Of a stretch of DNA of 64,000 nt, positions 20,114 through 64,000 are shown piece by piece. The notes beneath the pieces are model-generated. The model worked only from the letters and a program-made list of their open reading frames with translations, was not told the DNA's origin and ran no database searches. Source of the DNA: Betaproteobacteria bacterium (GTDB lineage Bacteria; Bdellovibrionota_B; Oligoflexia; Silvanigrellales; Silvanigrellaceae); the NCBI GenBank assembly GCA_016868315.1, contig VGHE01000001.1, positions 490,897 to 554,896 on the forward strand, written 5' to 3'. The stretch's first letter is position 1. Each line of letters begins with the position of its first letter. A program made the position numbers and the translations under genes.

Positions 20114-21495
20114 CGCTTGCTGCTTGCAAGGCGTTATTTGAACCCTCGCTACCTGCGCATTTGGTGCAGAGTCTGCGTGTTACGGGGTGTTCGAGTCGCT
20201 TGTGGCGGTTGAGCGTGCCGGGTTCTAAAAGTGTGACCAACCGCGCCATCGTCCTTGCCGGTCTGGCGGGGCAGCCCATTGAAATAATTTCGCCGCTTCT
20301 TGCCGACGATACCTGGTGGGGCTTCGTTGCCCTCGAAGGGCTGGGTTTCGATTTGGATGTTTCACGGCTACCAGATCGCGTTGTTGTTGGAGCCTGCACT
20401 CGCTCCGATAATAAAAGAGTTGAACTTCATTTAGGGCAGGCTGGTACTCTTGCACGTTTTCTGCCGGCATTGTTGCTCAATTGGAAAACCGTGCAATCGG
20501 GCAGCGCGCTTGAATCGTTCTTTCTCGATGCCAATGCACAACTCAAACGCCGGCCGCTCACACCTTTACTGCAAGCGTTGCGTGGTCTTGGCGCGCAAAT
20601 TGAATCCGATGTATTGCCCCTTGAAATTCGTCCGGCTGTGCTGCAAGGCGAGACAACCATCGACGGTTCGCAGTCGGGGCAGTTTGTCAGCGGCCTGCTG
20701 ATTGCTGCCGCAGGAGCGCGCAGGGCGGTGCGTATTATGCGCACGCAGGGGTTGGTGCAGCCCGATTACGTGCGCATCACTCTGGCCATGCTCGCTGAAT
20801 TCGGGGCGCATGTGGAATACGATTCCGAGCTGCGTGAATTTTCGGTCGCAGCACAGGAATGGAAACCACCTTCTTCCTACACAGTAGAAGCCGATGCCTC
20901 CACGGCGTGTTACTTTATGGCGCTGGCTTGCGCACTTGGTGCTGAGCTGCAAATAGAAAATTTAGGAAGCTCAACCTTACAGCCCGATTTTCAGTTCCTC
21001 GGATTGCTCAAGCAGTTTGGATTTGCGGTTCATTGGAATGCGCACAGCTGCGGTGTTGCTGCTGAGCTTTCAAATACAAATGCAGCTTCAGAGTGTGCGC
21101 TTCACTTCGACATGTCTGCTTGCAGCGACCAGGCCATCACCGCAGGGGTGATGGCGCTGTGCACAGGGCGTGCGCTGCATGTTTCGGGGGTGGCGCACAT
21201 TCGTCATCATGAATCCGATCGCATTGCAGCCTTCTGTGCCAATGCGCGCGCCTTGGGAGTGGCCGTGCAGGAATATCCGGATGGATTTCTGGTTCCCGCT
21301 GGAACCCGCGCGTTCGAACTCGCAGGCGCGTGGCGTACACACAGCGATCACCGCTTTGCACTTGCAGGCATTGTGCTAGCAGCATGTGCACCGCAGGTGA
21401 GTGTGTTAGATGCGGGCTGTATGAAAAAAACAGCGCCGCATTTCGTTGAACAGCTCACTGGGTTGGGTTTTCAATTTGCTCAGGGAATAGTGTAA
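20110..21495 (+). CDS. aroA: 3-phosphoshikimate 1-carboxyvinyltransferase (EPSP synthase), divergent
   Basis: 461 residues. Family marks are LSVPGSKSVTNRAIVLAGLA, GSQSGQFVSGLLIAA, VEADASTACYFMAL, HESDRIAAF, HSDHRFALAGIVLA and the C-terminal KKTAPHFVEQL. EPSP synthase joins PEP to shikimate-3-phosphate in the chorismate pathway. Two classical sites are altered: the usual NAGTAxR reads QAGTLAR here, and the Lys of the KE(S/T)DR motif is His. That makes it a divergent class rather than a broken gene. GTG at 20110 overlaps the scoB stop. Its end overlaps the convergent giant lipoprotein gene by 16 bases. Confidence 0.88.
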   Translation: MTLAACKALFEPSLPAHLVQSLRVTGCSSRLWRLSVPGSKSVTNRAIVLAGLAGQPIEIISPLLADDTWWGFVALEGLGFDLDVSRLPDRVVVGACTRSDNKRVELHLGQAGTLARFLPALLLNWKTVQSGSALESFFLDANAQLKRRPLTPLLQALRGLGAQIESDVLPLEIRPAVLQGETTIDGSQSGQFVSGLLIAAAGARRAVRIMRTQGLVQPDYVRITLAMLAEFGAHVEYDSELREFSVAAQEWKPPSSYTVEADASTACYFMALACALGAELQIENLGSSTLQPDFQFLGLLKQFGFAVHWNAHSCGVAAELSNTNAASECALHFDMSACSDQAITAGVMALCTGRALHVSGVAHIRHHESDRIAAFCANARALGVAVQEYPDGFLVPAGTRAFELAGAWRTHSDHRFALAGIVLAACAPQVSVLDAGCMKKTAPHFVEQLTGLGFQFAQGIV

Positions 21496-28820: not shown

Positions 28821-28936
28821 TCGCCCTCCTAATGAGAGCAATTTCGGCTTTTTCGGGAAACTTTTGAGGATACCTGGGCTTTGCGTAGCGGGCTTAAGTT
28901 GAGTTTTTCTTCAAGAAACTGTTTTCTTTGTCGAAA

Positions 28937-30061
28937 TTATTCAATCACAAAATCATTGTTCTTTTTTGCTTTATCCAGGAATTCCTGCTCCGCATTCTTT
29001 GTCTTCTCGAAAGTTTCTTTAGAGTTTTTGAGACCCTGCCTCAGCTGCTGCGACGGATCGGGTTTTGGCGTTTTGGTTGGCGCGGCTGTGGGTGTGGGTG
29101 TTGGGTTTTTGACTTCCGGAGCCGCTTGGGGCTTTGGACTCGGCACCGGAGTGACTGCTGCTGTGGGTTGGCTATTCACTTTTGTAGCTGGCTTTGCCGT
29201 GGGTTTTGGTGCTGCTTTCGTCGGTGTTGCTACCGGAGGCACTGCTGGTGTGGGGTCGACCGTGCGACCCTTCATTGGAATCATGATTTCGGACGTGGGC
29301 AAACTGGGAGCAGGTGTCGCTGTTGGTGTTGCGGTTGGTGTCACCTTGGGAGCAGGTGTCGCCGTTGGCGTTGCTGTTGGTGTCACCTTGGGCGTTGGTG
29401 TTGCCGTTGCTGTTGGTGTCACCTTGGGCGTTGGTGTTGCCGTTGGCGTTGCCGTTGGCGTTGCCGTTGGCGTTGCCGTTGGCGTTGCCGTTGGCGTTGG
29501 CGTTACTGTTGGCGTTGCCGTTGGCGTTGCCGTTGGCGTTGCCGTTGGCGTTGCCGTTGGTGTTGCCGTTGGCGTTGCCGTTGGTGTCACCTGGGGTGTG
29601 GGTGTTGCAGTGGCTTTTGCTGGCACAGGGCTCTGCTTGTTATCGACCGTGCTTTCCTCAGCCTGCGCTGTGTTCTCATCAGCCTCTTCTTCGCTTGTGT
29701 TTTGGCTATGGTGGTATGGAGCAATAAGCTCACCTTGCGGGTTGATTGCCCAGCCGCCCTGAAGAGGACACTTGAGGATTGGAATAAGAACTTTGGTGCC
29801 CGGTGGAATTTTCGTGTTGCGAAACTTCTCGAGCTTCGGATTCATGGCTATGGTTTTTTCTATCCATCCGCGTTTGCCATAGACAGGTTCAGTACCCAGG
29901 TACCAGAGCACCTCAGAGAGTGTATCGCCCTCGCGAAAAACAAAAGATGCTTTCTTTGGACACTCTGCTGCGGATGCCAGTGAAGGGCTCAACAGGGTCG
30001 CAGATAGAGTCAGAAACAACGATGAGACCTGTGTCAGCGACAAATTCGACAGACGCGCCAT
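28937..30061 (-). CDS. LysM-like envelope protein with long Thr-Pro-Thr-Ala repeat linker
   Basis: About 374 residues. After a signal peptide (cleavage near [10 protein letters not shown]) comes a LysM-like domain: [42 protein letters not shown]. LysM domains bind peptidoglycan. The middle is low-complexity Thr/Pro/Ala, including a run of 12-bp units coding for ATPT. The C-terminal 60 residues are charged and helical, rich in Lys, Glu and Gln. ATG at 30061 has a GGGGA upstream; an ATG at 30091 lacks a site. It lies 116 bases upstream of the giant lipoprotein gene on the same strand and may be co-transcribed with it. Confidence 0.75.
29316..29600. repeat. 12-bp tandem coding repeat (ATPT units)
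   Basis: On the plus strand a GTTGCCGTTGGC-type 12-mer recurs with small variants (GGTGTCACCTTGG insertions at the left end). On the minus strand it codes Ala-Thr-Pro-Thr units separated by PKVTP variants. The array lies inside the LysM gene linker, and because the unit length is a multiple of three, copy-number change would not shift the frame. Confidence 0.85.
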
Positions 30062-30098
30062 CTTGTATCCCCACGCGAGCTTCTTTAACATAACAACA

Positions 30099-41107: not shown

Positions 41108-41710
41108 ATGAACTGTGACAAATGCACTGTTAGTTACTCGAAGCAAAAGTTGTGCGGGTGGCGCATTGGTCTTGGCGCACTGGCAGTCGCACCTGCGGCT
41201 CTGTGTCTTACGCCTCTGGCATGGGCAGCCGCATCTGGTTCTGTGCCGGCCGGCAATAAACCGACGCCCGACCCTTCACCCTACGAGCGCAAGGTCTCAC
41301 TACCACCGCTTGTGTTGCTCGCACCCGACCAAACGAAAGGGCAGAGTTTTGAACCCCAGAAGTATCGCCTCTCGTTCGTCTGTTTGTTGGGAACCTGGAA
41401 CAAGCAAAGCGATCAGGTGCATCTCTATTTTGAAAAGAACCATGAATTTTTTGTTGAACGCAAAATCGCGGCAGTTGCTGCATTTTCGCACGACACAGCA
41501 GAGAACCTCAAACTTTGGGCGGAACAACGCAAGCCACGTTACCTTTTTGGTCTTGCACCAACAGAGTTCGTCGATCAGCTGAAGAATCCGAAAGTTCCGA
41601 CCTGTTGGCTGCTCTCGCGAGAAGGTCAGTTGTTACGTAAGTTCGAGCTTCCAAGTGAGAAGGATTTGGGTTCTGTTTACGATAAGTTGAAACGATGGAC
41701 TGATTTTTGA
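41108..41710 (+). CDS. Exported protein with degenerate thioredoxin-like fold
   Basis: 200 residues. The N-terminus has an unusual cysteine-containing head (MNCDKCT) and then a signal or anchor segment (GLGALAVAPAALCLTPLAWAAA). The mature part has the strand-helix pattern of AhpC/TlpA-like proteins: YRLSFVCLLGTWNKQSDQVHLYF in place of the usual FWxxWCxxC, and PTCWLLSREGQLLRKF where the cis-proline strand belongs. The redox CxxC is absent, so a structural or binding role is more likely than disulfide chemistry. ATG at 41108 follows GGGAGG. It precedes the motor cluster by 83 bases. Fold assignment is inference. Confidence 0.55.
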   Translation: MNCDKCTVSYSKQKLCGWRIGLGALAVAPAALCLTPLAWAAASGSVPAGNKPTPDPSPYERKVSLPPLVLLAPDQTKGQSFEPQKYRLSFVCLLGTWNKQSDQVHLYFEKNHEFFVERKIAAVAAFSHDTAENLKLWAEQRKPRYLFGLAPTEFVDQLKNPKVPTCWLLSREGQLLRKFELPSEKDLGSVYDKLKRWTDF

Positions 41711-41727
41711 CGGCCAATTAAGTAACA

Positions 41728-41757
41728 TTGACTCGCCGCGTCCAAGCTCCCTAAAAT
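41728..41757 (+). promoter_or_regulatory. Sigma-70-type promoter for the motor cluster
   Basis: TTGACT at 41728-41733 and TAAAAT at 41752-41757 with an 18-base spacer, 36 bases ahead of the TolQ-like start. Both hexamers match consensus at five of six positions. No other good promoter is seen before the long co-directional run. Confidence 0.65.
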
Positions 41758-41793
41758 TCTAAACGAAATCATCCATGAGCGTGGGGGCTTCAA

Positions 41794-42453
41794 ATGGAGT
41801 TAATTCAAAGGGCGTTTTTGTACGGTGGCTGGATCATGTACGTGATCCTCTTTTTCTTCATCTGTGTAGTTGCACTGGCTCTGTGGAGAGGATGGCTTCT
41901 TTATTATGTCTTCGACACACAGAATGCTCGTGGCATGTGGTCAGAGATCTACAAACAAGTTGCCAACAATCAAATTGAGAGTGCAATCCGCTTGTGTGAA
42001 CGTCAGCCTGCAAAGCAGATTCTTCCCCGTGTGTGGAAGAAAGGTTTGCAGAGCGCGAGTCGCACGGCCGAAGAAACTCAGAATGCAATTGAATCTGCAA
42101 CCCTTGAGCGTCTTCCTCTCGTTAATCGCTACCTGAACTACTTCGGTACACTTGCTAACATCACTACACTTCTCGGTTTGTTGGGTACTATTGCTGGTCT
42201 CATCATTTCCTTCAGTGCGGTGGCAACTCTTACGGGTGCTGCAAAGCAAACGAAGCTCGCCGAGGGTATCTCGCACGCGCTGTATGCAACCGGTTTCGGC
42301 TTGGGTACTGCTCTTGTGGCCATGGTTGTTCACGGTTTGTTGACCTTCAAAGCAAATCAGACCACCGAGACAACAGATGAGTTCGCAGCCAAGCTAATCG
42401 AGTTACTGCAGATGCGTCGCGCGAACCTGACTTCCAAGTCCTCTCCTGAATAA
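41794..42453 (+). CDS. TolQ/ExbB/MotA-family proton-channel protein (AglR-like)
   Basis: 219 residues with three membrane segments: an N-terminal one (WIMYVILFFFICVVALALW) and a C-terminal pair built around TTLLGLLGTIAGLIISF and GLGTALVAMVVHGLL. The LLGTIAGLI..F block is the family signature. It would form the inner-membrane channel with the two following TolR-like proteins and convert proton flow into work. The order TolQ-TolR-TolR followed by TPR and FHA/TonB proteins matches AglR-AglQ-AglS plus Glt components of Myxococcus gliding. It is the first gene of the cluster. Confidence 0.88.
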   Translation: MELIQRAFLYGGWIMYVILFFFICVVALALWRGWLLYYVFDTQNARGMWSEIYKQVANNQIESAIRLCERQPAKQILPRVWKKGLQSASRTAEETQNAIESATLERLPLVNRYLNYFGTLANITTLLGLLGTIAGLIISFSAVATLTGAAKQTKLAEGISHALYATGFGLGTALVAMVVHGLLTFKANQTTETTDEFAAKLIELLQMRRANLTSKSSPE

Positions 42454-42476
42454 CGAAGTTACCGCGAGGAAAAGAA

Positions 42477-43037
42477 ATGAGCGGATTCAAGCTCAAGAAA
42501 AGAAAGCAGGTGCAGACGGCGTTCCAGATCAACGTGACGCCGATGCTCGACTTGTTCTCTGTGCTCATTATCTTCCTGCTTGCAACTTCTGTTTTTTCGG
42601 CAACGGGCGAGACACTAATCGAAGTCCCCTTCTTGTCGAGTCAGCCGCCTCCAAAGCAGGAGGAGATTGAAAAGAATCCCGAGAAGACCGTCAGCATCAC
42701 TATCGACAGCAAGACTGTGAAATATCAGCAAGCAACGACGGCAAGCTCGGTCATTCAAGAAGAGATTGAAGTTCCGCTCACCGAAGAGGGGCTCGATAAG
42801 ATTCAGCAGAAGATTTACGACATTCGTAAGGTGACTCCGAAATTCGACAAAGTCACTGTCTTCACTCAAGCGGAAGTTTCGTACGAAAAATTGATCATGG
42901 TTCTCGATACGGTGCGTGAGTACAGGTCAGGGCGAGCTCCCATTGAATTTCCACCTGACTACAAGATGCCTGCGGGTGTTGACCCAACAAGTCTTGTGAC
43001 AAAGGTCGTATTGGGTAACGTGATTTTCGCAGATTGA
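42477..43037 (+). CDS. TolR/ExbD-family protein (AglQ/AglS-like), first copy
   Basis: 186 residues. A short basic cytoplasmic head, one transmembrane helix with the channel aspartate in NVTPMLDLFSVLIIFLLAT, and a periplasmic domain that could bind peptidoglycan. The conserved Asp (in PMLD) is essential for proton passage in TolR and ExbD. It is 23 bases after the TolQ-like gene and seven bases before a second TolR-like gene; the two are only distantly alike outside the membrane segment, suggesting distinct roles in one complex. Confidence 0.88.
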   Translation: MSGFKLKKRKQVQTAFQINVTPMLDLFSVLIIFLLATSVFSATGETLIEVPFLSSQPPPKQEEIEKNPEKTVSITIDSKTVKYQQATTASSVIQEEIEVPLTEEGLDKIQQKIYDIRKVTPKFDKVTVFTQAEVSYEKLIMVLDTVREYRSGRAPIEFPPDYKMPAGVDPTSLVTKVVLGNVIFAD

Positions 43038-43044
43038 GGTAAGC

Positions 43045-43560
43045 ATGGCCGGTGTAGATGTAGGTGGCGACTCCTTTGAACTGAATCTCTATCCGATGTT
43101 GGATGTGTTCAGTATTCTTATCGTGTTTTTGCTCATGAACTTCTCTGTGAGTGGCGAGAGTGCAGAGGTTTCTGCGAATCTTGAGCTACCCATGTCTTCT
43201 GTAAAAATAAGTCTCGATTCGGCTGCAACTGTGGCAATCACTCGAACGGAAATAGTGATTCAGGGCGGGCTTAAAATTCCACTGACGCCCAATTCTCAAG
43301 ATGTGGTTGAAGTTTACAAAAAAGACGGTCAAGGCGCAATTCGCTCTGCTTATGATTCATTCAAAAAGCTTAAAGCTCAGAATGAAACTCTGAAGAACCG
43401 ACAAAAGAACCTTGCGCTCAGCAATTCAGATATTTCAACACTTGTTATGCAGTCGGATAAATCGATTCCCTACAGAATTATCAAAAGAATATTGGCCTCG
43501 GCGCAACAGGCAGAATTCATTTCCTGGAAGTTTGCAGTTCAGAAGAGGGATGTGAACTAA
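43045..43560 (+). CDS. TolR/ExbD-family protein (AglQ/AglS-like), second copy
   Basis: 171 residues. The membrane helix LNLYPMLDVFSILIVFLLMNF again holds the aspartate of the family. The periplasmic part has a coiled-coil-like stretch (SAYDSFKKLKAQNETLKNRQKN). As in AglRQS motors, two different TolR-like subunits follow one TolQ-like subunit. The stop is immediately followed by the ATG of the next gene. Confidence 0.87.
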   Translation: MAGVDVGGDSFELNLYPMLDVFSILIVFLLMNFSVSGESAEVSANLELPMSSVKISLDSAATVAITRTEIVIQGGLKIPLTPNSQDVVEVYKKDGQGAIRSAYDSFKKLKAQNETLKNRQKNLALSNSDISTLVMQSDKSIPYRIIKRILASAQQAEFISWKFAVQKRDVN

Positions 43561-44241
43561 ATGAAAACAAGCTGCAGAATCATGGCTGCAATTTCTACGT
43601 TGCTGGTGCCGACTCTGGCTGAAGCTCAGAAGGCAAATACGTTCAGTAACTTTGAAATTCGTGTGATTCGGCCGAAGTATTTTCAAAAATCTGTGAGGCT
43701 TGAGGCCGGCGCAAGCCTTGGCGCCGTGATGAACAGCACGTTTACTTATACGTATTTGCCTGGACTCAGGGCGTCGCTCCACCTCACCGAACTTGTAGAA
43801 CTTTTTGGTGAAGGTGCCGCAGGCATCACTATAAATAAATCAGACTGCACGGAACTCGGCGGTAAATTCAACATTGAACCGATCGTTGAAGAAACCGAAA
43901 TGCTTGCTGGTGGAGGAGTTGCTCTGACTCCTATCTATGGAAAGTATCAGCGCGCCAGTGGCGATGTGCTTTACTTCGATTGGTACTTCACGGGTGGTGG
44001 AGGGGTTGCCAACATGAAACGTCGTAAGCAGGGCTGTCGAACGCTGCTTCCGAACGAGCAGGCAGCGCCGCCGAAGCCCTACACGGCAACTCAGTTCAAT
44101 CTGGGTACAGGGCAGCGTTATTTTGTGTCCAAGAATCTCTCTGTAAATTGGGGTTTCAGGCTGTTTTTTATTACCGGATTCGAGGGCTCTGGAATGTCGC
44201 AAAACGCGGTCCTTACGGTCGGAACGGGTTACTTTTTTTGA
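43561..44241 (+). CDS. Small outer-membrane beta-barrel protein (CglE-like)
   Basis: 226 residues with a signal peptide (cleaving near LAEAQ). Alternating strands follow, typical of an eight-strand barrel (SVRLEAGASLGAVMNSTFTYTYLPGLRASLHL; LYFDWYFTGGGGVANM; LSVNWGFRLFFITGF), and it ends in a Bam-type GTGYFF. Myxococcus gliding and related clusters carry similar small barrels next to TPR proteins. Identification with CglE is by size, topology and neighbourhood. It would give the inner-membrane motor an outer-membrane partner. Confidence 0.6.
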   Translation: MKTSCRIMAAISTLLVPTLAEAQKANTFSNFEIRVIRPKYFQKSVRLEAGASLGAVMNSTFTYTYLPGLRASLHLTELVELFGEGAAGITINKSDCTELGGKFNIEPIVEETEMLAGGGVALTPIYGKYQRASGDVLYFDWYFTGGGGVANMKRRKQGCRTLLPNEQAAPPKPYTATQFNLGTGQRYFVSKNLSVNWGFRLFFITGFEGSGMSQNAVLTVGTGYFF

Positions 44242-44258
44242 ATGGGAAGCTCACAGCA

Positions 44259-45830
44259 ATGAGATCAGACATCAGGTCAAAGTTCTCTCTTGTGAAAGGG
44301 CATCTTGTTCCCAAGGCGCTTGGGCTTGTGTTGTGTTGCGCAATCTCTTTCCGGGCAGACGCGGGACCGCTTGATGACGCTAAAAGATTCCGTCGCTCTG
44401 GAGATTACCTGAATGCAGCCCGGATTTTTTATCAGGTTGTTGCGTCCTCGGGCGGCGACACTCGCTCTCAAGCCGAGTTCGGACTTGCGGATGCGCTACG
44501 TGGTGCTGGTTTTCCCTACGGAGCAGCGTTTTTCTACGGCAGATTGGTTCAGCAGGGAGCCAGGAACGATCTGTTCCGCCCCGCCTTGGAAGCCCTTAGC
44601 GACATAAACGCCCGCACACCTCTTGGCCGTGCCAGTATCGCTGGTTTATTCCAAACCAAACTAGATCCATTGTCTATTCCACCCTCGGCGCAGGGTTTCT
44701 ATTTTTACTACAAGGGTCTCGAGGCATTCGATACGAATCCAAGTGTCAGTTCGAACCTCGCGCGTGCGAAGGCCGATTTCGATCGGGTGCCACCAAATAG
44801 CCCGTATTTTGCACTCGCACAGCTCTACTTGGGGATGATTTACTCATTCACAGGGAATGAAGACCTTGCAATTGGCGCATTTAAGCGTGCTCAATCGAGA
44901 GGCCAAAGCGGCAGTTTGAAGCAGCTGGCAGCGATGAACCTGGCGCGTGCATTCTATGAACGCAAAGAGTTTAAATCGTCACTCGAACAATACTCAAAAA
45001 TCCCCCGAGAATCCGATTTGTGGCTCCAGACCCTGCTTGAAGGGGCATGGGCGTTCTTCCTCATCCAAAAACACAACAACACCCTTGGCAACATTCACAC
45101 AATTCATTCGCCGTTCTTCCAAAACAGATTTTACCCCGAGAGTTATATCCTCAGTGCAATTACCTATCTGCGTTTGTGTCGTTATGAGAGCGCAAAGACC
45201 TCTTTAAAACGATTTGGCGATCGGTACCGTGCAAAGTTCTCGGACTTGAACCTATTGCTCAAATCATACAACAAGCAGTACTCAAGTTTTTATGATTTGA
45301 TTGCGAATTACACCAATACGAAGCGCCTCAACCAGTACACAGCAGCCGTTGATATTGTTGACTCGGTGAGCCGAAGCGACGGTTTCAAAGAAGGACAGCA
45401 AGTGGTGCGCGGGTTAGATCGTGAAAAGGCGTTGCTGCGCACCCGAGGGGCTCGTTTTGACGGCCTCGCTGAGGTTCTTAAGAAAGTTTATGAAGACTTG
45501 CGTGTTGCAACTGCTGAACGGACTGGCCAGCAGTCATTCGACCAAGGTGTGCAGCTTTTCCGGCATCTAAAAGATCTCAGTAACCAAGCTCAGCTTATTA
45601 ACCTCGAGTTGCTCGGTGGAATCACAGACAAGCTGCGCAACGAGTATCAGGGCGATGATGCACCCGCGGATAAAACCGAATGGGGTGAAGGCATGCGTCC
45701 ATTGAATCTTGGCCAACAGCTCGAATTCTGGCCGTTCGAAGGCGAGTATTGGGAAGACGAACTTGGAGCCTACGTCTACAATATTGATTCAAAATGCCCC
45801 GGCAGTGGTGGCAAAGGCAGATCAAAATGA
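44259..45830 (+). CDS. Secreted TPR-like repeat protein
   Basis: 523 residues. A signal peptide (GLVLCCAISFRADA) precedes a helical-hairpin region: DAKRFRRSGDYLNAARIFYQVV, AQLYLGMIYSFTGNEDLAIGAFKRAQ, AMNLARAFYERKEFKSSLEQYSKI. These are TPR/SEL1-like repeats that scaffold protein complexes. The C-terminal third is less repetitive. ATG at 44259 is chosen because it puts the signal peptide at the N-terminus and has GGGAAG upstream. Its stop overlaps the next start (ATGA at 45827-45830). Confidence 0.7.
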   Translation: MRSDIRSKFSLVKGHLVPKALGLVLCCAISFRADAGPLDDAKRFRRSGDYLNAARIFYQVVASSGGDTRSQAEFGLADALRGAGFPYGAAFFYGRLVQQGARNDLFRPALEALSDINARTPLGRASIAGLFQTKLDPLSIPPSAQGFYFYYKGLEAFDTNPSVSSNLARAKADFDRVPPNSPYFALAQLYLGMIYSFTGNEDLAIGAFKRAQSRGQSGSLKQLAAMNLARAFYERKEFKSSLEQYSKIPRESDLWLQTLLEGAWAFFLIQKHNNTLGNIHTIHSPFFQNRFYPESYILSAITYLRLCRYESAKTSLKRFGDRYRAKFSDLNLLLKSYNKQYSSFYDLIANYTNTKRLNQYTAAVDIVDSVSRSDGFKEGQQVVRGLDREKALLRTRGARFDGLAEVLKKVYEDLRVATAERTGQQSFDQGVQLFRHLKDLSNQAQLINLELLGGITDKLRNEYQGDDAPADKTEWGEGMRPLNLGQQLEFWPFEGEYWEDELGAYVYNIDSKCPGSGGKGRSK

Positions 45831-48800
45831 AGAATTTAATAGGTTTGAGTGCATTCGCTGTTCTTGCTGTTCAAGCTCTCCCAGCTCAGGCACAGAGCCC
45901 CGCTTCGCTCGGTGGCTCGGGGCAGGCGAAGGTCAGCACATCGCAACAGCCTGTGACTGTAAAAGAGCGCACAGATAACGAGGTCGAGCGAAAGAAAAAG
46001 CAAGGCAAGTCCCAACGCGAATTGCGCGAAGAAAAAGGTGGCGGTCTTTCTCGGAGCGACTTCGAGACTGCGGCAATCGAGAAAGATTTAAGCTCAGCAC
46101 TCGACAACGAAATTCGATACATGGAGCCTCTGGTTGCGAAGCTTCGGCCTAACTCCGAGCAGCGACCCGAGATCATGCGGCGCTTGATTGAAAGTCTTCA
46201 TCAGCAGTCTCTTCTCGCGTTCTTTAAAGAATCGCGACAATACGATGAGACGTGGAATAAATGGGATCAGGGTGGACGCCGTGGTGCCGAACCGCGCCTC
46301 ACCATGACGAAGAGCAAGATTGCAACCAGTAAGGTTATTCAGCGCTGCCAGCAATTTATTGTTGAATATCCGAAGGGGAAAGGCATTGACGAGGTGACTT
46401 TCCAGCTTGCCTATGCCTTTGACCAGCTTGGTCAAAACAAGGAAGCTGCTCAGTACTACAGCCGACTTGTTGCTAACTATCCGAACAGCAAACGCGTTGC
46501 CGATGCACACTTCGCATTGGGTGAATATCACTTTGGCCGCCTCGATTTTCCAAAGGCGCTGACCTCGTTCACCGAGGTGGTTCGTTACACGCGCGCTCCC
46601 ATTCGTCCATGGGCAGAATTCAAGATTGCATGGTGTCTTTACAATCTGCAGAAGTATCAGCAGGCACTCGAACGTTGGCAGCTCGTAGTTAATTTGGCAA
46701 ATACATCCAACACAACCGCAAAAGGCGCGCGCCTAAAGATGAAGGATGAGGCGCTTCGAGACATGCTTTTGGCGTACGTTGAATTGGGTCAAGTCAAGGA
46801 AGCCATGGATTACATGACCCGCAACGCCAATGAAAAGAATATGGGTGACCTATTCAATAAGCTTGCAGGTCTTGTTCAGGATAAAGGCGAATATGACAAA
46901 GCGGTTGTCGTTTTAAAGACCTACATTGCAATGAAGCCCAACGATTTTCGTTCGGCTGAGCTGCAGATTCAAATTGCCGATACGGCAAACCTCAAGAACG
47001 ACAAAACTCTGCTGTGGCTGGAAATCATTGCGCTCAACAAGAACTATGGACCAGATTCAAGTTGGGCAAAGGTGAATGCGAACAATCCTGACTTCAAGGA
47101 AACTCAAGAAAAGATTCACAACGTGAGTTACACGTATGCGAAGAAAATGCACTTCCTGGGCCAAAAGGAAAAGCAGCAATATTATCTCGAGCAGGCGATA
47201 AAAGGGTATAAAATCTATCTTGCAACTTATCCCAATCGGAAGGAAACCAACGAGATCCGATTCCTTTTGGGCGAGCTTCAGTACCTGCGCGATCAATTTC
47301 GCGATGCGGGGAAGACTTTTGCGTCCTTCACGGCAAAGAAAGAGTTTCGTACGGCTGATCCACAACGGTACGAAAAGGCTTTCGACTATCAACGCACCTC
47401 AGCTTATTTCGTGATTCAAAAAGAAATGGCCGGTCTGCGTTCTCAGCGGTTTAATGCAGCTCAACCGAGCCGTTCATTGTCACCTGATGTTCAAGAATAC
47501 GTGACCGTCTGCGATTCCTACGCATCTCTTTTTCCAAAAAAGCAAGGAACGCTCGACTGCCAGGTCGACACAGCAGAGATTTTCTTGAAGACCAACAATA
47601 TTCCTCAAGCTGAAAAGCGCTTGATGGTTCTTGCGAAAGAGCGAGCAGGTCAAAAGGAAGGAGCTGCAGCAGCAGAGTTCCTTTTGCTCCTCTCGAAGGA
47701 TGACAAGAAAAAACTTATTAGCACAACCGATTCGCTTCTTCAGATTCCTCAATACAAGGGCGGAGAGCTTGGAAAACGTTTGTCGCTCATCAAGAGTGCT
47801 AACCGTTTCGATGAGCTCAAGGAGCTCGAGAGTGGTGGTAAGTTTGAGCAGGCCGCGCAGGAGTTCGAGCGTCTCGCAGCCGATCGAGCCTACAATAAAG
47901 CTGACGCAGCCCTTTTTAACGCGGGGGTAAACTACAAGCGTGCCAACCGTCTTGATAAGGCGACTGCGGCATATCAACGCGTTATTAATGAACATCCAAA
48001 GAGTGAACTTGTCGATGACGCTATGCTTGAAATCATTGACCTGACTTCTGGTCGGTTGCAGCTCCAGACTGCAGTCAGCTATGTGCGCATGTTTCTCACG
48101 CGATATCCCACCAATCCAAAGTCACCCAAGCTCATGGCGGGTGCCTGTGCTTATTATGAAGCGTTGTCGCAGGCAGAACGTGCACGTGAGGTTTGTCCTC
48201 AGGTTATTAAAGCGGGCGGGCCTGCAGCTGCAGTTGCTGCTGAGTCTATGGCAGGCGTGCTGGAGCGCGCGGGGCGTTACCAAGAGTTTTGGAGTTTTGC
48301 GGAAAAAGATTTGCTCCGTTTCTCAAAAACAACCACTGAGAAAATTGAAGTTTGGAACCGTATTGCCGAGGCAGCAAAAAAGGCTGGTAATGGCGGAAAG
48401 GTTGCTTCAGCGCAGCAACAAATTATGAAGCTCTACAACGCAGATAAGGGATCTGTGTCTGCTGGACCACCTCTTTCGTACGTAGGTGCTATTCGCTTCG
48501 CTCAGGAATTCCCGAGTCTGGAGAAGTTCAGGCGCGAAGTGCTTGTTGGCGGTAAATCAGGTGCTGAATTCCAGCAGAACATAATTAAGCGCAACGCCGA
48601 GCTCAAAAAACTGACCGATAAATTTACGGGCATTGTTCAAAGTGTCGGTGATGCAGAATGGTCAGTCGCGAGTCTTTATGTTGTGGGATATGCGCATGAG
48701 CTCGTTGCAGCAGAGCTTCTCAATCCGCCACAGCCTCCTGGAATCACGGGAGAGGGGTGGCAAAAGGTGAAGGCAACCCTCGCAGGTCTGGGTGTTCAGT

Positions 48801-49021
48801 TGCAGAAAAAAGCAAAAGACTACTACCAAAGTGGTGGTGACATCGTTGCGAAATTTAACGTCTACACCGACTACGGTCAAAAGGTTTTGTCTGCTCTCGC
48901 TCGACTTGAGCCAACGAAGTACCGCAAATCTGAAGAGTGGATTCCGAATGTGATGTTTGTGGGTACCGAGGTTATCGATTCTGCGAAGTACAAATCTGTT
49001 CTTGATCCGAAGGGATTCTGA
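45827..49021 (+). CDS. Large periplasmic TPR protein (AgmU/GltD-like)
   Basis: 1064 residues. A signal peptide (LSAFAVLAVQALPAQAQ) and a Lys/Arg/Glu-rich linker precede about 15 TPR-type hairpins. Examples are VTFQLAYAFDQLGQNKEAAQYYSRLVANYPNSK (split here by hairpin) and DAHFALGEYHFGRLDF, with ALFNAGVNYKRANRLDKATAAYQRV further on. Size, signal, repeat type and neighbours match Myxococcus AgmU/GltD, a periplasmic scaffold of the gliding machine. Start overlaps the previous stop. It is the largest gene of the cluster. Confidence 0.78.
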   Translation: MKNLIGLSAFAVLAVQALPAQAQSPASLGGSGQAKVSTSQQPVTVKERTDNEVERKKKQGKSQRELREEKGGGLSRSDFETAAIEKDLSSALDNEIRYMEPLVAKLRPNSEQRPEIMRRLIESLHQQSLLAFFKESRQYDETWNKWDQGGRRGAEPRLTMTKSKIATSKVIQRCQQFIVEYPKGKGIDEVTFQLAYAFDQLGQNKEAAQYYSRLVANYPNSKRVADAHFALGEYHFGRLDFPKALTSFTEVVRYTRAPIRPWAEFKIAWCLYNLQKYQQALERWQLVVNLANTSNTTAKGARLKMKDEALRDMLLAYVELGQVKEAMDYMTRNANEKNMGDLFNKLAGLVQDKGEYDKAVVVLKTYIAMKPNDFRSAELQIQIADTANLKNDKTLLWLEIIALNKNYGPDSSWAKVNANNPDFKETQEKIHNVSYTYAKKMHFLGQKEKQQYYLEQAIKGYKIYLATYPNRKETNEIRFLLGELQYLRDQFRDAGKTFASFTAKKEFRTADPQRYEKAFDYQRTSAYFVIQKEMAGLRSQRFNAAQPSRSLSPDVQEYVTVCDSYASLFPKKQGTLDCQVDTAEIFLKTNNIPQAEKRLMVLAKERAGQKEGAAAAEFLLLLSKDDKKKLISTTDSLLQIPQYKGGELGKRLSLIKSANRFDELKELESGGKFEQAAQEFERLAADRAYNKADAALFNAGVNYKRANRLDKATAAYQRVINEHPKSELVDDAMLEIIDLTSGRLQLQTAVSYVRMFLTRYPTNPKSPKLMAGACAYYEALSQAERAREVCPQVIKAGGPAAAVAAESMAGVLERAGRYQEFWSFAEKDLLRFSKTTTEKIEVWNRIAEAAKKAGNGGKVASAQQQIMKLYNADKGSVSAGPPLSYVGAIRFAQEFPSLEKFRREVLVGGKSGAEFQQNIIKRNAELKKLTDKFTGIVQSVGDAEWSVASLYVVGYAHELVAAELLNPPQPPGITGEGWQKVKATLAGLGVQLQKKAKDYYQSGGDIVAKFNVYTDYGQKVLSALARLEPTKYRKSEEWIPNVMFVGTEVIDSAKYKSVLDPKGF

Positions 49022-49023
49022 AA

Positions 49024-50139
49024 ATGAAATCGGTGATTTCTTCATTCGTTGCAGTTTGTACTTTGTTTTCCTCGGCCTATCTGGTTGCGTGTCAATCCAC
49101 CCAGAGTGAGCAGGCTCAGAGCGCAGATGCGCCAGACGAAAATGAAGATAAGCAAACTCGGCAGAAAGGTACTAAAGGCAAGGAGCCTTCAGCATCTCAG
49201 GAACGCGGCACCCAGCAACAAAACGGCGGTGGTGCGCAACAGCCCAAGAATGCTCCGTCAGCTCAATCTTCGGTGAGCTACGTGGTTACTACTCTTGCGA
49301 ACGAGGAAACCTTCGTCGGGCAGATTGCTCAACCGAAAATTGAGGATGTTCTGCGCTCACTCGAGCAAACCTATCGAGAGCGCAGCGACGACGGTGGAGC
49401 AGTTATTTCATACTTGGTCTTTCGTCGGCTTTCGGGAACCAGCCGTGATTTTCTTTCTGTTCTTGAACGACGCGGTTCAACAGCATCATCGCGTGATCCT
49501 TGGATACTCTTAGAAAGTTCTTACACAGCCCTGCTGCGTAGCGATTATGGGATGGCTCAGTACCTTCTCGATACCGCAGAGGCGGTGGGTAAGGGAGCTG
49601 CCAAAGTGAATGCGGCAATCATGCATGCCCGTGGTTTGATGCACTACCAGCAGAAGAAAACTGTGCTCGCGATGGCCGCTTTTCGTGAAGCAGCAAAGCT
49701 TTCGTACGAACCAGCAATGCTGACGCTCGCTCTTTTTGCGCTTAAAGTTGGCGACCATGTGGGTGCGCTTGAGCAATTAGGTAAGCTCAAAGATTTTGGC
49801 ATAGGAAATTTGAACGTGAAGGCTGCTCTCGGGATCGCCTACAGACAGGCCGGCAAGCCTGAAGAGGCCGCGGAATTTCTCAATCAGGTCGTTCGCGGTC
49901 GTCCCAGCGATAAGCGCGTGCTCTGGAACTACGCTTTGGCACTTTCCGAGATCCCTGCCAAGCGCCGGGATGCCATTGCGACTCTTGAGAAGTACAGCAG
50001 TGCTGAGGGTTACTTGATGGATATCGACAATCGTGCGCGCAGCCTTCTTGAGAAGTTGAAGGCTCAAGAGGAAGCAGCCAAAACACAAGCGAGCAAGCCC
50101 CCGGAAGCAGCTCCAGAGGCTAAGCCCGGGGGTCAATGA
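49024..50139 (+). CDS. TPR lipoprotein (AglT/GltE-like)
   Basis: 371 residues. The signal ends in lipobox YLVAC (Cys24). A disordered Gln/Glu/Ala-rich linker follows, then TPR-like hairpins (residues about 130-340: GMAQYLLDTAEAVGKG, AIMHARGLMHYQQKKTVLAMAAFREAAKLS, NVKAALGIAYRQAGKPEEAAEFLNQV). A Lys/Ala/Pro-rich tail closes it. In Myxococcus, AglT/GltE is a TPR lipoprotein placed next to AgmU, as here. It starts two bases after the preceding stop. Confidence 0.75.
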   Translation: MKSVISSFVAVCTLFSSAYLVACQSTQSEQAQSADAPDENEDKQTRQKGTKGKEPSASQERGTQQQNGGGAQQPKNAPSAQSSVSYVVTTLANEETFVGQIAQPKIEDVLRSLEQTYRERSDDGGAVISYLVFRRLSGTSRDFLSVLERRGSTASSRDPWILLESSYTALLRSDYGMAQYLLDTAEAVGKGAAKVNAAIMHARGLMHYQQKKTVLAMAAFREAAKLSYEPAMLTLALFALKVGDHVGALEQLGKLKDFGIGNLNVKAALGIAYRQAGKPEEAAEFLNQVVRGRPSDKRVLWNYALALSEIPAKRRDAIATLEKYSSAEGYLMDIDNRARSLLEKLKAQEEAAKTQASKPPEAAPEAKPGGQ

Positions 50140-50182
50140 GTTGAGAACAGTGTTTGGTCGTTCTGACGAAGGGAATTGAGAT

Positions 50183-52135
50183 ATGGCTCTGTTTCTTGTC
50201 GCAAATAAAGTTGCGCCCGGCTACCCAGATTCCTTTGTGCTTGAATCTGGGCAGGTCATCATTGGGCGTCTGACGACCAATCACCTTGTGATTCAGGGGA
50301 ACCTCGTTGAACCCATTCACGCGATGATTGAAGTTGATCCTCAAACGGGTCAGGCTGCCGTTGTCGATATGGCGAGTGAGCATGGTGTCAAGGTCAATGG
50401 TCGTCCGATTGATGTTTCTGCGAATATTTCAGTGGGCGACGAAATCACCATTGGTGATGTCACAATCACAGTAAAGAAGGCTGCTGATACTGCTGCAGCG
50501 GCTGGTGCTGAAAATGAAGATGAGCAGACTGGCGACAGCAAGGGAACACAGTCCAAGGCTGCCGTTCCTCGCATTTCAAATTCAAGATTGCTGTTCACGG
50601 CGGAAAAGGATCGTCGCACCGGGAGCACCCTCGAAGTCGTCGCATTCTGGGATCAAAGTATTCTTGATGTGCGCCATTACGGTGGTGAGCAGCTCAGCAC
50701 AGATGAAGAGCGCAGCAACAAAGTTGTGATTGGCAACGAGTCCGATGGCGATTTGATTGGCGTGGGTCCAAAGGCAAATACCCGTAACCTCAAGATCGCT
50801 GATGTTCGCGGCTCGAAGGCAGTGGTCTTTTTGAACGATGAGATGCGTGCTCGTGTTCGTCGTGGTGCTCGATTCGAGCAGGTCAAAGGGCCGGCGGAAG
50901 TGCAGTTGTCTGCAAACGACATGGTTTTGTTGCAGCATGGCACGCTGAGTTATTTCATGACCCGCGTGTCGCTGCCGAATCCTGTTTTGAGGAAGGTCGA
51001 CGACCTAGACGGCAAGCCTGTCATCTTTGCCTACGCGGTTGGGCTTTATCTTGCGCTTGCCGCGTTGCTCCTCATGGTCAATGCAAACTATGTACCGAGC
51101 GAAGCTGATAAGGAAGAGGCGTGGAGCAACGTCTTTACTGTCACCACTCCCACACCCAAACCCAAAGACAAGAAAGAACCACCGGCACCCAAGCCAACGG
51201 TTGCCGTGAAAACCCCGGCTCCGGTGAAAAAGCCACCCGAGGCTAAGCGCACTCAGCCTCCGGCTCCTCAGCCGACGGCCAAGCCTGTGGCGAAGCGCCC
51301 CGAACCCAAGCCCGAGGCGCCCGCGAAGAACAAGGGGCCAACCACCGGCGAGAAGAAGAACACAAAGGACACTTTTTTGGGCAACAAGGCCAATGCGAAT
51401 CCCGGTAACAGCGGAGGTCCGCGGGGTGGTACCTCGGGTGCGTTCGCAGGTCAGCGTCAGGGCAACGACAAAAACAGCATGATGGGAGTCGAGGGAGGCA
51501 AGAAGGATGAACTGGGCGGCCTGAACCTCGATGTCCTGGGCAACTCCATCGGCAAGACAATTAACGCTGAGGGAGCAGGCAAGATTGCCACGGGAGTCAA
51601 GTCGACGGGCGGCGGACTTGGAGGCGGCAGTGGTAGCGGCAAGCGCGGTTCCTTTGGTTTGGGAGGAATTGGCGAAGGCAACTCGATTTCCTCTGGTGGA
51701 CCCGGCGATGCACTGAAAGGGTTGGGAGCAGGTGGTCTTGGTTCCGGAGGAAGTGGTGCTGGCGGCCGTCGTGACAGCGGTGGTGGCAAGCTCTCTGTGG
51801 GTTCGGTCAGCGCTCCTGCGGGAGACAGTGTACTAGAAGGAAACCTCAGCCGTGAGGAAATCGAGGCTGTGGTTAAAGCTAACTTAGCCAAGATCAAGGC
51901 CTGCTATGAAAGGCAACTCCAAGCAAAGCGTGGCATGGCAGGTCGTGTCAAAACCAAGTTTTTGATTTCACCCGAGGGGCGAGTCACGTCGTCGAGCGTG
52001 ACCAGCTCAGAGTTGAACGACCGTCCCACGGAGAACTGTATTGCAAATGAAATTCGGCGCTGGAAGTTCCCACTTCCTCGTGGGGGTGGTGAAGTCAACG
52101 TGAACTATCCGTTCGACTTCCGGCCGAGCAGTTGA
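50183..52135 (+). CDS. FHA-like, single-TM protein with Gly-rich linker and TonB-like C-terminus (GltG/AgmX-like)
   Basis: 650 residues. An N-terminal FHA-like fold (FVLESGQVIIGRLTTNHLVI..IHAMIEV..VKVNG) and a second soluble region precede a single transmembrane segment (AYAVGLYLALAALLLMVNA, near residue 290). Then come Lys/Pro-rich and Gly/Ser-rich periplasmic linkers and a C-terminal AgmX/TonB-type domain with IKACYERQLQAKRGMAGRVKTKF-like features (in two parts) and RRWKFPLP. The layout fits GltG/AgmX-like proteins that link a cytosolic side to outer-membrane partners. The FHA phosphothreonine-contacting Ser and Asn are not conserved, so phosphopeptide binding may be lost. Confidence 0.78.
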   Translation: MALFLVANKVAPGYPDSFVLESGQVIIGRLTTNHLVIQGNLVEPIHAMIEVDPQTGQAAVVDMASEHGVKVNGRPIDVSANISVGDEITIGDVTITVKKAADTAAAAGAENEDEQTGDSKGTQSKAAVPRISNSRLLFTAEKDRRTGSTLEVVAFWDQSILDVRHYGGEQLSTDEERSNKVVIGNESDGDLIGVGPKANTRNLKIADVRGSKAVVFLNDEMRARVRRGARFEQVKGPAEVQLSANDMVLLQHGTLSYFMTRVSLPNPVLRKVDDLDGKPVIFAYAVGLYLALAALLLMVNANYVPSEADKEEAWSNVFTVTTPTPKPKDKKEPPAPKPTVAVKTPAPVKKPPEAKRTQPPAPQPTAKPVAKRPEPKPEAPAKNKGPTTGEKKNTKDTFLGNKANANPGNSGGPRGGTSGAFAGQRQGNDKNSMMGVEGGKKDELGGLNLDVLGNSIGKTINAEGAGKIATGVKSTGGGLGGGSGSGKRGSFGLGGIGEGNSISSGGPGDALKGLGAGGLGSGGSGAGGRRDSGGGKLSVGSVSAPAGDSVLEGNLSREEIEAVVKANLAKIKACYERQLQAKRGMAGRVKTKFLISPEGRVTSSSVTSSELNDRPTENCIANEIRRWKFPLPRGGGEVNVNYPFDFRPSS

Positions 52136-52282
52136 GCTGCACAAACGTGCAAATCAGACCACTTGACTTCATTGAAAAAATTCCCCTGAGGCGCCAAAAA
52201 TCTATAACTTCTTAAAATTGCAGTCGCTTCCATGGGTTGCAACAAGCGGCGAATCGGTCTAGGGTTTATTCATTGACTGAGC

Positions 52283-52317
52283 AACCAAGAGAGCGCCCGC
52301 CGGGCGCAATCTTGGTT
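52283..52317 (+). terminator. Rho-independent terminator of the motor cluster
   Basis: An outer stem AACCAAGA/TCTTGGTT (8 bp) and an inner stem GCGCCC/GGGCGC (6 bp) with a GCC loop, separated by a small internal loop, then TGTTTA. It sits 148 bases after the FHA/TonB gene. The rest of the 318-base gap to 52454 shows only a lone TTGACA (52330-52335) without a good -10 partner. Confidence 0.75.
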
Positions 52318-52453: not shown

Positions 52454-53209
52454 ATGTTTTCAGGTCGTTTGAGCAGATGTGTAGCGCTGTGTGCCGTTTT
52501 GGCATCAGTGGGCTGCATCGCAAAACGCGAAACTTCAGAGCTGTTCTTGCGTGGCTCAATCGCAGAATCGTCTGAAGTCGTGCAATTGGATCCCGTTTTT
52601 CTTTCGCGTCAGCGGCAAGTCGAAACCCGATTCTTTGGATTCGATGACCAATCCACTGCGGAAAAGCCTCAAGGTTCTGACGTCAACGACAGCGCGGTCG
52701 CTGAAAGCGAAGCCGAGGATGTTGATGTGACTATCGTTGCAGGTGGTGTTGGCGCTCCCTCTGACTCAATCACCAATCGGCTTTTCCCGGTTGATTTGAG
52801 CTGGCCTTTGGATGGTCATGTGACCAGTCCCTTTGGAATGCGTCGCGGTCGTCTTCATGCGGGCGTTGATATTAAAGGTTTTAGAGGCGATCCGATCATT
52901 GCTGCAGCTGACGGGCAAGTTCTTCTTGCAAAAAGAAAGCGCGCATATGGTGTTGTCGCGATTGTTGGCCACGACCATGACACGCAAACCCTATACGCAC
53001 ATATGCTTCGCCTAGCAGTGCGTGAAGGTCAGTTTGTGAAAGCGGGCGATCTTCTCGGTTACGTTGGACGCAGCGGTCGTGCCACGGGTTACCATCTGCA
53101 CTTTGAAACTCGCGTTGCAGGCGGTGTTCCTCAAGATCCTATGCGTTTTCTTCCTTCGACTCGCGCGACACGCGTCGGCTTGTCTCCGGATTCAGCTTTC
53201 TTCCGCTGA
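52454..53209 (+). CDS. M23 (LytM) family lipoprotein, probable cell-wall endopeptidase
   Basis: 251 residues with lipobox ASVGC (Cys21) and a linker of about 90 residues. The M23 domain has all zinc-site features: HAGVD in RLHAGVDIKGF, the DG at AAADGQVLLA, LYAHM, and the final HLHFE. Being complete, it should cleave peptidoglycan cross-bridges rather than act only as an activator. It follows the motor cluster terminator, so it is likely separately expressed. Its last 79 bases overlap the convergent methyltransferase gene. Confidence 0.88.
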   Translation: MFSGRLSRCVALCAVLASVGCIAKRETSELFLRGSIAESSEVVQLDPVFLSRQRQVETRFFGFDDQSTAEKPQGSDVNDSAVAESEAEDVDVTIVAGGVGAPSDSITNRLFPVDLSWPLDGHVTSPFGMRRGRLHAGVDIKGFRGDPIIAAADGQVLLAKRKRAYGVVAIVGHDHDTQTLYAHMLRLAVREGQFVKAGDLLGYVGRSGRATGYHLHFETRVAGGVPQDPMRFLPSTRATRVGLSPDSAFFR

Positions 53210-61379: not shown

Positions 61380-64000
61380 TCATGGAATGACGTATTTACT
61401 GCACATTCTCGGACGGGGTGAAGTGAGAGGGGTGGTTGCATTACATGACGTGTTGCTGCCACAGATGAAGGCTGGGCTTGAAACCTGTTGGAAATTTGAA
61501 GTGCCTAGCTGACCCGAGGCGTTGTTGCCCCAGCAGTAGCTTGTACCCTCAATGCTCATGGCGCAGGTATGAGCGTCACCTGCGGAAAGCGAAACGATTG
61601 TCGCAGTAGCAGGAAAGTTGATGGCTGTGGGAGATTTCTTGCAAAAGGTGGCGTTTACAGCGCCACTGCCTGAGTTGCAGTCATCATTTGAGCCATCGGT
61701 TGTGGTTACGCTGCCTACGCCAAGCTGGCCTGTGTTGCCAAGACCCCAACAGCTGACGCTGAAGTCATTCAGCAGAGCGCATGTGTGATATGTTCCGGCA
61801 GAAATTTGTACTGCATTTGAGTTGATGTCTGCCACCTGCACGGGAACATTGCTTGAAGATGTCGATCCGATACCCAGCTGCCCAACAGAGTTGTCCCCCC
61901 AGCAGTAAACATCGCCACCCGAGCGCAGTGCACATGTATGACTATAGCCGGCTGTGAGCTGTAGCACATTGGTACCTAATTGTGAGGTCTCAACCGCAAC
62001 TGGAACACTGCTATTTGATGTGGAGTTGTTTCCCAATTTGCCTGAGGCGCCATTGCCCCAGCAATAAACAGAGTTCACCCCAGAGCCCTGATTTTGAATT
62101 GCACACGCATGTTGATGTCCTGCGGAGAGTGCAAACACATCTGCGTTGCTACCTGAGAATGCGCCTTTCGAGACTGCCACAACACTTCCGACCGAAGGGG
62201 TCGTGTTTGTGCCATTGCCCAGTTGTCCTGAACTATTCAATCCCCAACAGTGCACGTGCCCCGAGCTGGATGCACCTGTATCATTGAGAATGGCACAGGC
62301 GAATTGACCAAATTTTCCGCCGCTGATGGCAACGGGAGTGCGGCTGGCAAAGTTGATTGCGGATGCAAAAGAACTTGTTGCACCACTCGATCGACCGAGT
62401 TGGCCGTGCGTATTGCTTCCTGCACAGCGAATTTCTTTGCTCGAAGTGCCATTGCCAAGTGCGCAAGTAAAATCAGAACCCGCCGAAACCTGCAGCGGCG
62501 TGAATGAGGCAATACTTATTGTCTGCGGGAAATTATATGTCGTGGTGTTTCCTGTTCCCAGTTGCGAAGATGAATTGCCTCCCCAACATTTCAAAGTTGA
62601 AACATCTATGAGGCAGCTGTGTCCGGTTGCCGCTGAAATCGATGCAAGATTTCCGGTACAAAGTCTGCACACAGAGGCAGTCGTCACATAGTCGGGCTGG
62701 AATCCATCCAGATTTACGGTTGTCTCTGAAATGCTATTGGCATGATTTGCAATGTTTCTGATGGTTATATTTTCAAGCGTACGGTTAATCGAATAGGAGG
62801 TTGAGGTACCTGAAATTCTGGGGGAGAGACCAAAGGCTGTGTTGTTGTTTATTCCACTCAGAAAATTGATGGAAGTTGCTTCAAACAATGCTGTGGTTGA
62901 GACCTGCGATTTGTTGCGTGTTGGCGGTGAATCGATGAGATAGGAAGAGCTAAATGTTGTATCGAAGGCGGTGGGTGAGGTCGAACTTGTTCCCGTGCTT
63001 GCAACAGCTCCTGTGAACCTAAGATTCGAACTGTGGCTAAATGAGTTGATATTACCTGACTTTGAAAACTGAGCTGAACTTGAGACAGTGCAGATCGAGT
63101 TGGAGGTAGCACTGAGACTTGGTTTGCTGACGCTTGATATAGAAAGCTGGTAGTGGTTGAGCTCAACTGAAAACGAAGAAAATGCGGTGCAGGTCGACGC
63201 TGCATCACAGGCACGAACCTTATATTTGCAGGTACCGTAGTTCGGGGAAGTTGTGTACGTTCCCGTGAGCGAACCAGTCGTAGAAGTAAATGATTCAGGG
63301 CAAGTGAATCCTGAAATGTTCTGATCCGATTGAAATTCCATTTTATAGGTGAGTGTGTCGCCGGAGTCTATGTCACTTGCGCCCGTACAGCTCAAATTCC
63401 ACGTCGCCCCGTTTCGGCCACTGTACCTAATTTCCGCAGTCGAACTTCCTGCACACGAGATTGTCCCGGTAGGCGCATCGTTGGTGTTGCTGACTTGAAG
63501 AGTAAAGACGGTCGATGCAGTCAGCACTTTGTGATCGGTAGCAACGCCATCATCTGTTAATGTGAAGGTCAGCTGTGCAGAACCAAACTGATTGGCCAAG
63601 GGTGTGAGCGTCGCCGTGCAATTCGGCCAAGTCCCCCCCCAAGCCACGCCACTGTTCGGTATAAGGGTTGTGTTGGTTGATGACATACTCAGATAGATAG
63701 AGCTACAGGTATAACTTTTGTCCGGGTCGTTGGCTGAAAAATTGATGGTCAACGAGCTGTCTTCTGAGGTGGATTGTGGCGAGGAAATTGAGCTGATTGT
63801 GGGGGCATGGTTGATGGGAGTGACGGTCAGTTGAAAGGATGCTGAAGCTGTAGCCGCGCCGTCATCGACGGTGAAGGTCAAATTCGTTGAACCGCTTTTG
63901 TTACTGACCGGTGTAACTGTCGCAGTGCAGTTTGGAACTGTCCCCGAAAAGGAAACTGCACCTGAGTTTGCAACGAGATTGTTGTCTCCGGTTGCATAAC
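61380..64000 (-). CDS. Second cadherin-like/RCC1 giant protein, 5' end beyond the right edge
   Basis: At least 873 codons; the frame is open to base 64000. The visible part begins inside a cadherin-like repeat (LVANSGAVSFSGTVPNCTATVTP). It continues through two more repeats and the junction domain (NDAPTGTISCAG..; QPDYVTT..CRLC), then seven RCC1 blades with H-x-C and CWG/CAG pairs. It ends PRPRMCSKYVIP, against LRPRTCSVYTIP in the giant at 21480-28820. The two are clear paralogues over the last 620 or so residues. It lies just upstream of galT on the same strand. Confidence 0.85.
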   Translation of the reverse strand, partial: YATGDNNLVANSGAVSFSGTVPNCTATVTPVSNKSGSTNLTFTVDDGAATASASFQLTVTPINHAPTISSISSPQSTSEDSSLTINFSANDPDKSYTCSSIYLSMSSTNTTLIPNSGVAWGGTWPNCTATLTPLANQFGSAQLTFTLTDDGVATDHKVLTASTVFTLQVSNTNDAPTGTISCAGSSTAEIRYSGRNGATWNLSCTGASDIDSGDTLTYKMEFQSDQNISGFTCPESFTSTTGSLTGTYTTSPNYGTCKYKVRACDAASTCTAFSSFSVELNHYQLSISSVSKPSLSATSNSICTVSSSAQFSKSGNINSFSHSSNLRFTGAVASTGTSSTSPTAFDTTFSSSYLIDSPPTRNKSQVSTTALFEATSINFLSGINNNTAFGLSPRISGTSTSYSINRTLENITIRNIANHANSISETTVNLDGFQPDYVTTASVCRLCTGNLASISAATGHSCLIDVSTLKCWGGNSSSQLGTGNTTTYNFPQTISIASFTPLQVSAGSDFTCALGNGTSSKEIRCAGSNTHGQLGRSSGATSSFASAINFASRTPVAISGGKFGQFACAILNDTGASSSGHVHCWGLNSSGQLGNGTNTTPSVGSVVAVSKGAFSGSNADVFALSAGHQHACAIQNQGSGVNSVYCWGNGASGKLGNNSTSNSSVPVAVETSQLGTNVLQLTAGYSHTCALRSGGDVYCWGDNSVGQLGIGSTSSSNVPVQVADINSNAVQISAGTYHTCALLNDFSVSCWGLGNTGQLGVGSVTTTDGSNDDCNSGSGAVNATFCKKSPTAINFPATATIVSLSAGDAHTCAMSIEGTSYCWGNNASGQLGTSNFQQVSSPAFICGSNTSCNATTPLTSPRPRMCSKYVIP

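Follow-up and report, generated by a model that had tools for sequence, protein, structure and literature searches.

An Agl-Glt-type core operon and a motorless paralogue cluster in class Oligoflexia, both missing from one genus

Introduction

Which trans-envelope machine is encoded by the compact operon at 41794-52135 of the window, and what work would that machine do for the cell? The window, by which we mean the whole stretch of 64,000 nucleotides that was analysed, has Silvanigrellales MAGs as its nearest named relatives. A sequence-only reading of this DNA had proposed an Agl/Glt-like motor, perhaps a minimal machine, with gliding, surface protein export or polysaccharide movement as candidate tasks. 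A 2026 review (PMC13104615) counts the gliding motor of Bdellovibrio as not yet identified. Class Oligoflexia offers a compact gene set with which the task of the core complex can be tested outside Myxococcota.

Results

The operon consists of eight co-directional, tightly packed genes on the + strand, in the order aglR-tolR-tolR-barrel-gltC-D-E-G that is typical of Oligoflexia. The stop codon of gltC and the start codon of gltD share ATGA (45827-45830), and the second tolR gene abuts the barrel gene. Domain matches for all eight products confirmed the earlier description of one TolQ, two TolR, a barrel, two secreted TPR proteins, a TPR lipoprotein and an FHA/TM/TonB-C protein in a single unit. 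Its features are:

41711..41770, + strand: conserved non-coding block with promoter-like TTGACT-N18-TAAAAT (41728-41757); 50/60 positions identical in three species
41794..42453, + strand: aglR, TolQ/ExbB-type proton channel of 219 aa; MotA_ExbB PF01618, E=4e-23
42477..43037, + strand: aglQ/S-type TolR no. 1, with proton-carrying Asp25; ExbD PF02472, 1e-15
43045..43560, + strand: aglQ/S-type TolR no. 2, with Asp20; ExbD PF02472, 4e-12
43561..44241, + strand: secreted 8-stranded outer-membrane barrel of GltA/GltB type; TIGR04565 (OMP_myx_plus), 9e-19
43654..43668, + strand: EIRVI codons, candidate TonB box at the mature N-terminus of the barrel; E32, R34, V35 and R37 each conserved in 90% or more of rows
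44259..45830, + strand: gltC, secreted periplasmic TPR-like solenoid; NF033756 gliding_GltC, 2e-48; all-helical predicted model
45827..49021, + strand: gltD, large secreted TPR protein; TPR_6, 4e-17; GltD-like position and size; one clade across the class
49024..50139, + strand: gltE, TPR lipoprotein with lipobox LVAC, read from the sequence; NF033758 gliding_GltE, 1e-6
50183..52135, + strand: gltG, FHA - TM - Pro-rich linker - TonB-C transducer; NF033760 gliding_GltG, 4e-43; myxo_SS_tail, 2e-30; FHA, 2e-11; TonB_C, 6e-7
about 52281..52316, + strand: terminator-like hairpin; -24 kcal/mol, z=-4.5

The operon had been credited with its own promoter and terminator. The three species that share the upstream 60-nt block are congeneric, and because a scan of the region found 6 promoter-like sites against 10.7 expected from shuffles, with no excess, the candidate promoter draws its support only from conservation. 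The terminator hairpin stands out by its z score, and only one of two close relatives has a hairpin, a weaker one, at the corresponding position. Independent support for the operon limits comes from a related genus, here called g5, in which an interval of 117-118 bp lies between the secreted gene on the upstream side and the M23 lipoprotein gene on the downstream side. Both of these flanking genes (41108-41710 and 52454-53209 respectively) are retained by g5 despite its loss of the block, which rules them out as operon members. Elsewhere in the window, reading of the translation pointed to two very large proteins, putatively of the cell surface, in which Ig/cadherin-like modules recur and RCC1-like repeats occupy the C-terminus (21480-28841 and 61380-63881, both - strand), and to a LysM-like secreted protein in which TPTATPTA is repeated at length (28937-30091, - strand).

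The membrane Asp of both TolR proteins and the Thr residues in TM2/TM3 of AglR are conserved in at least 90% (18 class members). The AlphaFold model of the barrel (pLDDT 88) has eight strands and was OmpA-like in PDB comparison, with EIRVI situated in a flexible low-confidence tail ahead of strand 1. EIRVI is a candidate TonB box, with a putative function in transducer contact; possible TonB boxes had already been ascribed to GltA and GltB (PMC5349195). GltC had been listed among the missing parts, which is wrong, as the first TPR protein matches the NCBIfam GltC model; no GltC homologues were found in PDB. The large TPR protein was matched by no GltD family model and is assigned as GltD from its TPR content, size, position and phylogeny. 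Judged by these matches, the homology of GltC, GltG and GltE is clear, yet the label 'gliding equivalog' is unearned because their bit scores are all well below the NCBI curated gliding cut-offs (166 against 450 for GltC, 148 against 650 for GltG and 28 against 225 for GltE).

The TolQ, TolR and TonB-C domains of the operon would also suit a divergent Tol-Pal or ExbBD/TonB system, a reading to which we give almost no credence. The genome encodes seven TolQ/MotA-family proteins, belonging to a TolQ-R-A-B set, an ExbBD-like set, MotAB-type stators, the window AglR and a unit without the membrane Asp. Since the genome thus has its own TolQ-TolR-TolA-TolB elsewhere (G000:C4; TolQ 196 bits, TolB 286 bits) the Tol-Pal reading fails, and both systems were rejected on the existence of these separate sets. 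The window TolQ, moreover, scored only 61 bits against the tolQ equivalog model, under the cut-off of 221; TolB, Pal and TolA are absent from the operon; and the GltC, GltE and GltG models match. Tol-Pal membership being refuted, the proposed Agl/Glt-like trans-envelope motor is backed by family models, gene order and class-wide synteny as well as by this exclusion. On the evidence of homology and gene content, the operon is a genuine, complete core Agl-Glt operon and an ordinary member of its family; the kind of machine is known, and what this member adds is that across the class it is paired with a motorless cluster and that one genus has cleanly lost both.

This second cluster (L003:4517-17265; G000:C3) encodes a barrel, GltC2, GltD2, GltE2 and a small GltF/CglF-like protein, CglF being GltF (PMC4488436). 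Its barrel matches TIGR04565 (3e-24) and its small protein the CglF model (2e-7). The cluster is conserved in 18 loci of the class, all without a motor, with the small protein seen in 12 of these 18; it has no motor, transducer or GltG of its own. In the GltD tree the two clusters form two clades, each spanning the class (SH-aLRT 100 and 99), and the duplication is therefore old, the paralogues having split before the class radiated. The earlier description of a minimal machine consequently holds for the operon and not for the genome, which adds the second barrel, the GltC/D/E paralogues, the GltF/CglF-like protein and an MglA.

The window operon itself proved collinear across class Oligoflexia in 20 loci when synteny was compared, a few of these being incomplete or having a GltE too divergent for tblastn detection. 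It is missing from g5, a genus of eight genomes in the same family as the window, several of them assembled in one or few contigs. All four g5 genomes examined retain the RelA/SpoT-like gene, the secreted gene and the M23 lipoprotein gene in the same order, and the short interval given above replaces eight genes in the two genomes measured. No AglR orthologue was found elsewhere in seven g5 genomes, where the best matches reached about 45 bits; in other families, true orthologues score about 150. Collinear in the class and excised whole in g5, the operon has been inherited as one unit. The second cluster is also lost from g5, with the flanks of both loci intact and empty sites seen, and a single evolutionary event may account for this double loss.

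Both GltC types occur in 32 of 56 genomes and the window type only in 14; 10 have neither, and none has the second type only. Incompleteness of MAGs may inflate the 14 window-type-only cases, and one of the 10 'neither' genomes (G025) has an AglR orthologue with GltC not found, a status that probably reflects fragmentation. The probability of such a nested distribution is about 6e-5 if labels are independent, a value that is descriptive only as the genomes are related. This distribution bears on the possibility that the two clusters are independent, the second being a separate envelope system and the co-loss in one genus a coincidence or driven by lifestyle. The second cluster does have its own GltC/D/E; in the window's family, and there only, it sits directly behind BagA-BagB-MlaE-MlaF-MCE (BagA/BagB-like ATPases and a lipid-transport set) and not behind motor genes; and the co-loss is essentially that of one clade. 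With no second-only genome among the 56, no motor or transducer in the second cluster, and BagAB-MlaEF-MCE genes that stay in g5 although the second Glt cluster is gone, we regard independence as rather unlikely. A TolQ-TolR-TolR-GltG-like unit beside an RNase J-like gene (G000:C4:220630-224233; L022:6631-10234), whose TolR-like proteins have no membrane Asp, was considered as the motor of the second cluster; this is unlikely, as the unit is also kept in Silvanigrellales genomes that lost Glt and persists in g5.

A search of the rest of the genome for the parts absent from the window recovered some of them, namely an MglA, the GltF/CglF-like protein and the second barrel. The MglA-like GTPase (L019:1468-2079; G000:C6) has an Arf match, the P-loop GKTTNL and the switch region TLPHH, and adjoins a mannose-6-phosphate isomerase-like gene. 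GltJ was not found in the genome, the GltJ model matching the shared TonB-C tail only, and for MglB there was no Robl_LC7 match over the cut-off in this assembly, which is 95% complete. Of 58 class genomes, 50 encode MglA, and 7 of the 8 that have no Glt are among them. It does not track the machine, because g5 keeps MglA without any Glt, and it was rejected as a marker.

Discussion

In motors of the Tol/Exb/Agl kind, GltG is believed to be set in motion by proton flow. We propose, with somewhat more confidence than doubt, that the window encodes an Agl-Glt core machine, that its motor is shared with the motorless cluster and that its task is most likely gliding-type lateral transport of surface adhesions. 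Proton flow through AglR and the two TolR proteins, via the membrane Asp of each TolR, would cyclically drive the single-pass GltG, whose proline-rich periplasmic arm would reach through the peptidoglycan and present the TonB-C domain to the barrel in the outer membrane; contact would probably be made via the conserved EIRVI strand at the N-terminal end of the mature barrel protein. GltC, GltD and the lipoprotein GltE would form a periplasmic/outer-membrane scaffold, and the same motor would most likely also serve the second barrel, GltC2/D2/E2 and GltF. The most likely task would then be to carry adhesion complexes laterally along the cell surface, in other words slow gliding of the Bdellovibrio kind.

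Several published observations touch on this proposal. GltG is believed to contact outer-membrane partners through its TonB-C domain (PMC5349195); an AglR-GltG contact, published for M. xanthus only, and PMF dependence were reported in that organism (PMC3169522); GltA, GltB and GltC are mutually stabilising (PMC4488436); and a single Agl motor is able to supply two outputs of Glt type (PMC3858216). In the speculation of Luciano et al., possession of AglRQS and GltA-G makes any bacterium a potential glider. An aglS insertion in Bdellovibrio abolishes prey attachment (PMC6561027). We favour gliding-type surface transport because the window's genome has homologues of each of AglRQS and GltA-G, together with the Agl precedents and this Bdellovibrio phenotype. 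Against it stand GltJ and MglB, which were not found, the Glt scores below curated cut-offs, the uncoupling of MglA from Glt, the lack of a GltG in the second cluster and the literature, in which we found no gliding record for this lineage.

The main rival to gliding-type surface transport is polymer transport, in which the same machine would move or lay a surface polymer or protein coat without propelling the cell. The core complex occurs in bacteria without recorded gliding, and GltJ, not found here, is essential for M. xanthus gliding (PMC3169522); the Agl-Nfs system, which does this for the M. xanthus spore coat, is a precedent (PMC3858216), and the uncoupled distribution of MglA is in keeping with such a task. 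However, Bdellovibrio, a gliding relative, is also without GltH, I, J and K (PMC3169522), and comparison of synteny across the class, short of a systematic search of the neighbours, revealed no cluster of polysaccharide or coat genes next to either locus. We consider this rival possible but the less probable assignment.

Returning to the gliding-type reading, a bolder form of it is offered tentatively, as a conjecture that may well prove wrong: the window AglRQS-GltG would power two paralogous outer-membrane stacks from separate loci as one gliding hetero-machine, ancestral to Oligoflexia, doing its work with neither MglB nor GltJ, and gone as a whole from a genus that is probably the cultured Silvanigrellaceae. 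The whole core in one operon, the motorless partner cluster and the empty sites at both loci in g5 amount to a natural double knockout, and the clean loss together with the second, motorless copy makes the job of the operon testable.

By comparison with known systems, the Group B core complex (aglRQS gltCDEG; Luciano et al. 2011) has all seven of its genes in one cluster here, with the same domain architectures; the window differs by an extra gene, for an OmpA-like barrel (TIGR04565), that separates the motor genes from gltC. The expanded core complex of Bdellovibrio (Bd0828-0838) is from the same phylum, and as in Bdellovibrio GltJ was not found in the window's genome, which has MglA, with MglB not found; the difference from Bd0828-0838 is that GltF and the second barrel are here encoded apart, in the motorless cluster. 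Tol-Pal has the stator family and the TonB-C principle in common with the operon, whereas bona fide TolQRAB lies elsewhere in the genome. The Agl-Glt system of Myxococcus xanthus differs in that GltJ and MglB were not found here and the scores lie below the gliding cut-offs, but it shares AglRQS, GltC, D, E, G and a GltA/B-type barrel with the window, and the GltF/CglF-like protein and second barrel with the rest of the genome.
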